Shown: one piece after another, positions 32,459-33,523 of the stretch
Layout of the letters: every line of letters begins with the position of its first letter
Position numbering within the stretch: position 1 is the stretch's first letter
Assembly: GCA_021201235.1 (NCBI GenBank)
Contig: JAJQFI010000008.1
Location: 1-64,000 of the forward strand
From: Oscillospiraceae bacterium
Lineage (GTDB): Bacteria; Bacillota; Clostridia; Oscillospirales; Ruminococcaceae
Reading direction: 5' to 3'
DNA: 64,000 nucleotides
Notes under the pieces: generated by a model
Told to the model about the DNA's origin: nothing
Database searches by the model: none
What the model saw: only the letters and a program-made list of their open reading frames with translations
Position numbers and translations under genes: made by a program

Positions 32459-33523
32459 TTATAAAATATACTTTCTCAAAGGCTTTATCAGTGACATCAC
32501 CCACGAGGTGATAAACGAACATACTACAAAAAACAGGCAGAACGCCAATGTTGCCAATGGATAAAGTGAAAAGCTTAGAGGAGTAATCTTAATTGCCATG
32601 TAAACAAATTGAATAAATACAGGGTGAACCAAATACACTCCAAAGCAAAGGCGGTCTATCTTCCATATTACTGCGGCTTTAGATTCAGTAATCCCATCTT
32701 GATTAACCCATAAAAATCAGTGCCGCCAAGACAGCGGTTAATGGACTGTCATTTGACGCCAACGCGCCTGAGGCAAAATCAAAATAATCAGCAACTACAA
32801 ACACTGCAAGTATAAAGAAGATACCCATGAGGCAATACTTTGTCTTCCATCTGTCTATGTAATCCTTCAAATAATACCCAAGCATTACATAGAACACATG
32901 ATACGTCAGCGGCATTGTAAAGGCTATCTCCGCACCAATCAAATCAGATAATGTCGGCAGGCAATAGACAAATATAAACATCGCTATTAGTGTGTACGAA
33001 AAAGTGTCCCTATCTATGTGGTCAACAAATATTTTAAGAGCCGGGAGCAAGAGGTATATTCCTATAAGCGTATAGAGATACCAAAGGTGATGTACTCCAC
33101 TGTTTGTAAATACATAGCCTACAGCTTCCACAAACATTCGAAAATTAATTGTCTTCGTCTCCGCGTAAAGATAAATGCGCATCATTGCAAAAGGAATTCC
33201 AAATACAAACAGCGCCAGAACAATTCTCAAGCAATATTTCGACAAACATTGCTTGAACGAAATGGACTTTTGCGGATTCAAAAGAAGTGCTCCCGTTATC
33301 ATGAAGAAAACCGGTACCGCCCAACTTGCTATATGATGTCCGGCATTCAAGAACCAACTTTGTAAATCCGATATCTGAAATAGTTCCGGATGATCGGTCA
33401 AAGTAGTACAGGTGTGATGCCACACCACACAAACAGTAGCTAAAATGCGTAGATAGCTAATGCTTGCTTGCTTGCTTGCTTGCTTGCTTGCTTGCTTGCT
33501 ATCAAATTATCCTCGATTCTCAT
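32459..33523 (-). pseudogene. Membrane acyltransferase (acyltransferase 3 family), repeat-switched 5' end and 3' frameshift
   Basis: The intact core (33428-32703) shows VWHHTC with the catalytic-type histidine, about eight membrane helices and WAVPVFFMITGALLL, typical of O-acyltransferases that acetylate surface glycans. The same frame extends upstream as ISYLRILATVCVVWHH into a (AGCA)10 tract at 33500-33461. From the ATG at 33523 the tract is out of register, ending at a TAG at 33442-33440; 8 or 11 repeats would restore it. At the 3' end the frame stops at 32703, but one T fewer in the run at 32712-32716 would continue into CFGVYLVHPVFIQF and two helices to 32459. Last in the polysaccharide operon; predicted to decorate its product. 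Confidence 0.7.
33461..33500. repeat. Tetranucleotide microsatellite (TGCT)10
   Basis: Ten perfect TGCT units on the plus strand, AGCA on the coding strand, at the 5' end of the acyltransferase frame. Repeats of four bases change the reading frame on slippage, the hallmark of a contingency locus. In this sequence the count puts the ATG at 33523 out of frame. Confidence 0.95.

Follow-up and report, generated by a model that had tools for sequence, protein, structure and literature searches.

A perfect tetranucleotide tract, reading (TGCT)10 on the forward strand and (AGCA)10 on the coding strand, lies ahead of an acyltransferase gene in the 64-kb stretch of DNA analysed here (the window). The tract is probably a slipped-strand phase-variation switch of translation, of which the window copy is OFF and most likely decaying. 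Ribosomes would start at the ATG at 33523 and pass through a short leader into the GCAA repeats, the number of which would set whether they enter the acyltransferase frame. The leader belongs to a (GCAA)n leader family of the clostridial order with two outputs. In one, which includes the window, the tract is directly fused to a surface protein or an acyltransferase; in the other, it would be part of a leader peptide ahead of an intrinsic terminator, and the register would decide between an early stop of the ribosome and a run into the terminator. What the sequences show is the anatomy, its conservation, the differing repeat numbers of relatives, the break in the frame and the terminators; from these we infer slippage in living cells, the states of expression and attenuation.

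The tract was called by Tandem Repeats Finder with period 4, 10.0 copies and 100 % match, and it translates as A-S-K-Q whatever the frame. In the 2.06-Mb genome (32 contigs) the (GCAA)4 16-mer gave six overlapping matches, all within the window tract, which is the sole GCAA x4 tract of its genome; the reversed-pattern control gave no matches, and a script for perfect repeats (3–9-nt units, at least five copies) identified no second one in the window. The tract is not due to chance. On the minus strand the order is AAAAAAGGGGCTTGACAAAGAA-ATG-AGAATCGAGGATAATTTGAT-(AGCA)10-TTAGCTATCTACGCATTTTAG (Table 1). From the ATG at 33523–33521, 20 nt are followed by the ten units and then by TTA GCT ATC TAC GCA TTT TAG, which gives a 27-aa product and the OFF register. 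Upstream of its domain the acyltransferase frame is open through the tract as far as a TAA at 33509–33507, with no ATG of its own between this TAA and the tract. The register one unit away (11 units, 8 being equivalent) links the ATG to LRILATVCVVWHH of the acyltransferase frame. The tract, whose unit is not a triplet, lies inside an ORF, and in one of its registers the protein is connected to a start codon. The perfect tract, the open upstream frame, the OFF register ending at the TAG and the joining of the ATG to the acyltransferase start at 8 or 11 units had all been put forward in a preliminary description of this DNA, and each was reproduced. A GTG at 33428 was set aside as a start; it intrudes on the domain start and, by eye, has no Shine–Dalgarno sequence before it.

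Table 1. Features of the tract, the broken acyltransferase gene and its upstream neighbours (window coordinates)
Feature	Position	Strand	Evidence
Acyl_transf_3 (PF01757), N-terminal 251 residues, premature stop	32703..33458	-	Profile 6-256 of 326
Same acyltransferase, C-terminal part (85 residues), other frame	32459..32716	-	Profile 273-326 of 326
Frame break, site of an 11-bp gap in the alignment with sibling genome G025	32707..32708	-	blastn, 316/363 identical
TAG closing the leader frame when ten units are present (OFF)	33440..33442	-	Frame reading
(AGCA)10 / (TGCT)10 tetranucleotide tract	33461..33500	-	Tandem Repeats Finder, genome-wide pattern count
Promoter-like TTGACA-17-GATAAT overlapping the ATG	33506..33534	-	11/12 letters
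Leader ATG, probable start codon, 24 nt ahead of the tract's GCAA phase	33521..33523	-	Phase in 20/22 distinct leaders
AAGGGG, ribosome-binding-site-like; weak call	33536..33541	-	Sequence
UDP-glucose dehydrogenase, upstream neighbour	33766..35037	-	Pfam
Surface-polymer cluster: flippase-like, CDP-glycerol glycerophosphotransferase, epimerase/dehydratase, IspD/TarI-like cytidylyltransferase, LicD	35074..39953	-	

The ribosome-binding-site call at the window is weak because the letters AAGGGG also precede TTGACA in tRNA promoters of the window's genus. Promoter-like sites as good as TTGACA-17-GATAAT number 12 in the window, and the tract would sit at the probable transcription start of this pair. 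Transcripts from it would start after the ATG and so lack it, because the pair overlaps the leader ATG, and this would count against the switch. A promoter scan of the minus strand from 33534 to 33900 gave no other promoter-like site; read-through into the leader from the upstream gene is possible.

The genes upstream of the acyltransferase, including that for UDP-glucose dehydrogenase, are a surface-polymer cluster. A hydrophobic ORF of 62 residues without a Pfam match (33570–33755, minus strand), perhaps what is left of another membrane protein, lies between the UDP-glucose dehydrogenase gene and the tract. Directly downstream of the broken acyltransferase is a GmrSD-type protein (PF03235 and PF07510, 581 aa; 30593–32338, minus strand), which going by its family name belongs to type IV restriction.

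The acyltransferase gene of the window is broken in every register. Its N-terminal frame matched PF01757 at 89.6 bits (E 2.6e-25; gathering cut-off 31 bits), and the C-terminal frame (32462–32716, 85 residues), at 26.0 bits (E 5.8e-6), fell below this cut-off; no one frame holds the full-length domain, profile positions 273–326 being in another frame. An orthologous locus (L067) is carried by G025, a genome of the same genus. When the window was compared with G025 by blastn, the leader was 49/54 identical, and in the alignment of the C-terminal part (316/363 identical) the window has a gap of 11 bp (Table 1); in the G025 copy the tract is gone, as are about 600 bp inside the gene. Because this gap puts the C-terminal part off-frame, no register of the window gives a complete protein, the last ~85 residues remaining out of frame when the ATG is joined to the domain, and the window copy is therefore most likely the decaying form of a once-working switch. 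Homopolymer sequencing error was rejected as the cause of the C-terminal break, the G025 alignment showing an 11-bp gap. From domain start to stop, nine homologues, hand-chosen from 46 homologous loci, comprised 278–389 residues, compared with 251 in the window. The early frame stop at 32703 and the continuation of the gene in another frame had been missed in the preliminary description. Its designation of a surface acyltransferase stands as regards the PF01757 match and the position beside a surface-polymer cluster, but not as regards a working enzyme, given the 11-bp gap and the G025 remnant.

Among 30 other members of the genus searched, the window locus was recognised in G025 only. G004, G010 and G021 had acyltransferase matches at 24–29 % identity, and G008 had the leader and tract ahead of a different gene. 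A protein search of 99 relatives gave matches in 22 genomes, at 22–34 % identity except in G025, where 33 residues matched at 82 % identity. Two stretches of viral contigs matched in a search for acyltransferase relatives, neither of which was confirmed.

Besides the window's genome, tracts were carried by 19 genomes, 18 within the order and one outside it. The family, order, class and genus searches used patterns that detect only AGCA-phase tracts after a non-A base. With about five units, the family search identified 16 places in 6 of 297 genomes (11 of the places in G204) and the order search nine places in 8 of 394; a slightly shorter pattern gave 2 of 392 genomes in the class, the window's own counted. 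With about four units, 16 places were identified in one of the two genomes of G204's genus and 11 places in 8 of the 29 of G633's genus, and a second draw from the order, in which most genomes were repeated, gave eight places in 7 of 394 genomes and no new carriers. The base before AGCA was T at every listed place, except in G633's genus (10 of 11). GCAA x5 in any phase was present in 3 of 99 relatives, and a pattern again limited to AGCA-phase tracts after a non-A base gave none in 24 genomes with distant homologues (24 of the 46 homologous loci). The 16 tracts of G204 (L099, L101–L110, L136, L140, L142, L149 and L150) may be an undercount, because some contigs start or stop at a tract; G051, the other genome of its genus searched, had none. 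The pattern occurred in 17 viral contigs, with the whole leader recognised by eye in L125 only. When the leader was searched for in the window's own genus, matches came from 11 of 31 genomes. Beyond the window, G008 and G025 these matches comprised 13 loci, of which seven adjoin tRNA genes and five were not assigned; at L174 the same promoter letters occur with TATAAT, and no tRNA was found there.

Leaders from 37 loci represented 22 distinct leaders; this count excludes L110 and L148, in which the contig end truncates the leader, as well as L136 and duplicate records of a place. Nearly all carriers share a common order of RBS-like site, TTGACA-like box, ATG, 6–9 codons and tract. The ATG lies 18–29 nt ahead of the tract, and the comparison of this distance among relatives, which had been suggested as a check on the switch, showed it to be divisible by 3 in 20 of the 22 distinct leaders (exceptions L100, 28, and L157, 29); as the leaders share ancestry, these are not 20 independent tests. 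AAGG was seen by eye ahead of the ATG in 20 of the 22, L133 has GGAGG immediately 5' of the ATG and L098 has GGGAGGAG. TTGACA-like and -10-like hexamers (at least 9/12 letters) overlap the ATG in all distinct leaders but L152, which was below the threshold, with a spacing of 16–17 nt (16 or 18 in L179).

In G204 a further upstream promoter, TTGACA-(17–18)-TATAAT, was seen by eye in 12 of 16 copies, two of the others being without it and two more cut by contig ends. Among 13 G204 copies, high identity was confined to the stretch that begins near -100 and ends with the tract (medians 0.88 and 0.79); on either side of this stretch the medians were 0.56–0.62, compared with 0.625 for shuffled DNA. 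On these identities, the leader plus tract of G204 is a dispersed cassette.

GCAA counts differed between loci with near-identical flanks (110 nt upstream/200 nt downstream of the tract), the G-numbered genomes in these pairs being representatives of different species and not sister cells. L156 had 8 units and L158 11 (flanks 100/99.5 % identical), L128 had 22 and L129 6 (99.1/100 %), L135 had 22 and L161 8 (100/99.5 %), and L151 had 10 and L130 8 (99.1/92 %). The viral contig locus L125, with 8 units, grouped with L156 and L158. Pairing of the start region with the sequence behind the tract was compared with shuffles at 23 loci. It was clearly more favourable than in shuffles at L128 (z -3.6), L134 (-2.9) and L131 (-2.7), in which the start-codon region can pair just 3' of the tract and enclose the repeat in a long hairpin; it was slightly more favourable at nine loci (z -0.5 to -1.6) and no better than shuffles at 11, which include the window (+2.7) and the loci of G204.

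In loci of the fused type, the tract continues into a hydrophobic stretch without a terminator. In L133, which is unrelated to the window locus, it is fused in frame to an intact acyltransferase-3 of 330 codons (PF01757, 1.1e-23), and this was the only fused locus in the ON register. The fused frames of L102, L104, L106, L149 and L108 run for 406, 407, 374, 333 and 379 codons after the tract, respectively, and were OFF as assembled, as was the window. In these six loci no other start was seen ahead of the stretch that resembles a signal peptide or forms the first membrane segment. L104 has BspA-type LRR, and the product of L108 is lipoprotein-like by eye, without a Pfam match; two further fused loci are open for just 80 codons (L150) or cut by a contig end (L107). 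The slippage switch had been proposed as the likely logic of the locus, and it is favoured by the conserved leader, the in-phase ATGs, the differing repeat numbers of near-identical loci and the L133 fusion.

In loci of the leader type, a hairpin and T-run follow 34–55 nt after the tract and beat all 40 shuffles in each of the 17 loci tested. A terminator stronger than all shuffles was present in none of the four fused loci tested, nor was one found between tract and gene in the window, where the best hairpin (-9.0 kcal/mol) was equalled by 14 of 40 shuffles. Leader-plus-terminator loci outnumber fused genes among the relatives with DNA behind the tract; L095, L097, L100 and L136, with almost no post-tract DNA, were placed in neither type. 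One register met an early stop no more than 12 nt past the tract in 15 of the 17 leader-type loci, compared with 6.9 expected from shuffles (P 4e-5 assuming independent loci, which homologous loci are not). An early-stop register and a terminator-reaching register were both present in 16 of 17 (10.5 expected), and the terminator-reaching register alone was not above chance (16 vs 14.8 expected; L179 has none), with shuffles that treat homologous loci as independent. Among 12 hand-chosen representatives the early stop was present in 11 (4.7 expected) and both features in 11 (7.6 expected).

The genes downstream of leader-type loci, where inspected, have their own start. By eye they encode secreted proteins, with a beta-helix in L134 and Listeria–Bacteroides repeats in L099; those of L075, L131 and L179 also look secreted and have no Pfam match, whilst L132 precedes a TetR regulator. 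In G633's genus, leader-type tracts (L128, L151, L156, L152, L159 and L135) lie upstream of large ATP-binding proteins, which by eye look like LuxR/MalT-like regulators, although the one tested against Pfam (L156) gave no match. By eye, these tracts would look like a repeat switch on a regulator and not on a surface gene.

It is unlikely that the switch at the window still controls a working enzyme, whether because the truncated ON product of ~274 aa is functional or because the 11-bp difference is an assembly or consensus error. The N-terminal frame has no break for 251 residues and matches PF01757 strongly, and the C-terminal frame still matches weakly; this combination implies that the decay is recent or the break an artefact. 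However, a difference of 11 bp is no homopolymer slip, the sibling copy in G025 is also a remnant and the nine homologues compared are all longer from the domain start. Chance expansion of a microsatellite in a pseudogene that was never regulatory would suit the broken gene and the absence of the tract from G025, but leader, ATG and tract recur across families before surface genes and regulators, and the likeness of the G204 copies is limited to the stretch between about -100 and the tract; we regard this origin as highly improbable.

Alternatively, the tract might be noncoding and mark where transcription from a strong promoter, TTGACA-17-GATAAT, begins, with the repeat number altering the 5' end of the RNA and the ATG being incidental. 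The hexamer pair in 21 of 22 leaders, a count made without a shuffle control, is in keeping with this, as is the TA before the tract in 16/16 places in the family, 9/9 in the order, 16/16 in G204's genus and 10/11 in G633's genus. In the window's genus, moreover, AAAAAAGGG(G)CTTGACAAA precedes tRNA genes, 7 of the 13 other matches adjoining tRNAs. Against it stand the fused frames of 330–407 codons (L133, L102, L104, L106, L149 and L108), with no other start seen before the first hydrophobic stretch, the GGAGG just 5' of the ATG in L133 and the phase of the ATG in 20 of 22 leaders. The promoter was rejected as the main explanation, since the fused frames need the upstream ATG, and is kept as an improbable rival to the translational switch.

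The translational switch might be part of something wider, which we put forward tentatively and consider rather doubtful: a portable phase-variation cassette native to the order, made up of a promoter, an RBS, a short leader ORF and (GCAA)n, that would have been copied before surface proteins, acyltransferases and regulators and would act through the two outputs. A second promoter overlapping the leader would start transcription inside the repeat, perhaps setting the slippage rate or the timing of ribosome and polymerase, and the window would hold a decaying copy.

Repeat-based phase variation has mostly been described for small-genome pathogens. Among the parts of the open-licence literature that were listed, no paper on GCAA tracts of this kind in Clostridia was found by title or abstract start, and we know of no dispersed shared leader in the lic-type switches of Haemophilus influenzae. 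If the switch is real, a dispersed (GCAA)n leader in Clostridia, which precedes surface proteins as well as regulators and has in part the layout of a leader-peptide attenuator, would allow many uncultured genomes to be tested for cell-to-cell heterogeneity simply from sequence, and the mechanism of Streptococcus gallolyticus pil1 would extend to another class. The window locus also illustrates a limit, in that a perfect repeat before a gene is no proof of a working gene.

For the lic-type genes of H. influenzae, the accessible part of PMC2651432 describes tetranucleotide repeats towards the 5' end of ORFs, with the peptide repeat confined to the N-terminus, as in the window. The likeness to H. 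influenzae oafA (LOS O-acetyltransferase) drawn in the preliminary description holds for the GCAA unit, the acyltransferase-3 family and the logic, but not for the position of the tract, which the same part of PMC2651432 places in the middle of oafA. The peptide encoded by GCAA is noted there as hydrophilic and positively charged, and an acetylase row of a table (unit printed as CAAG) gives counts of 5 to 14 across strains; the accessible part of PMC9558356 describes oafA expression as phase variable. In the window, by contrast, the tract is N-terminal, in a leader common to unrelated genes, and the copy is broken. In S. gallolyticus pil1, according to the accessible part of PMC3894217, changes in a GCAGA repeat make a leader peptide longer, and a premature terminator is opened by ribosomes. 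The repeat of pil1/pil3 thus lies within the leader peptide, one register stopping before the premature terminator and others reaching it (PMC3894217, same part), and the leader-type GCAA loci match this arrangement. The pil repeat is a pentanucleotide and not a tetranucleotide, it occurs in another clade with other targets, and the window locus is without a terminator; in layout, the leader-type GCAA loci, as putative attenuators, resemble the leader-peptide attenuator of pil1.
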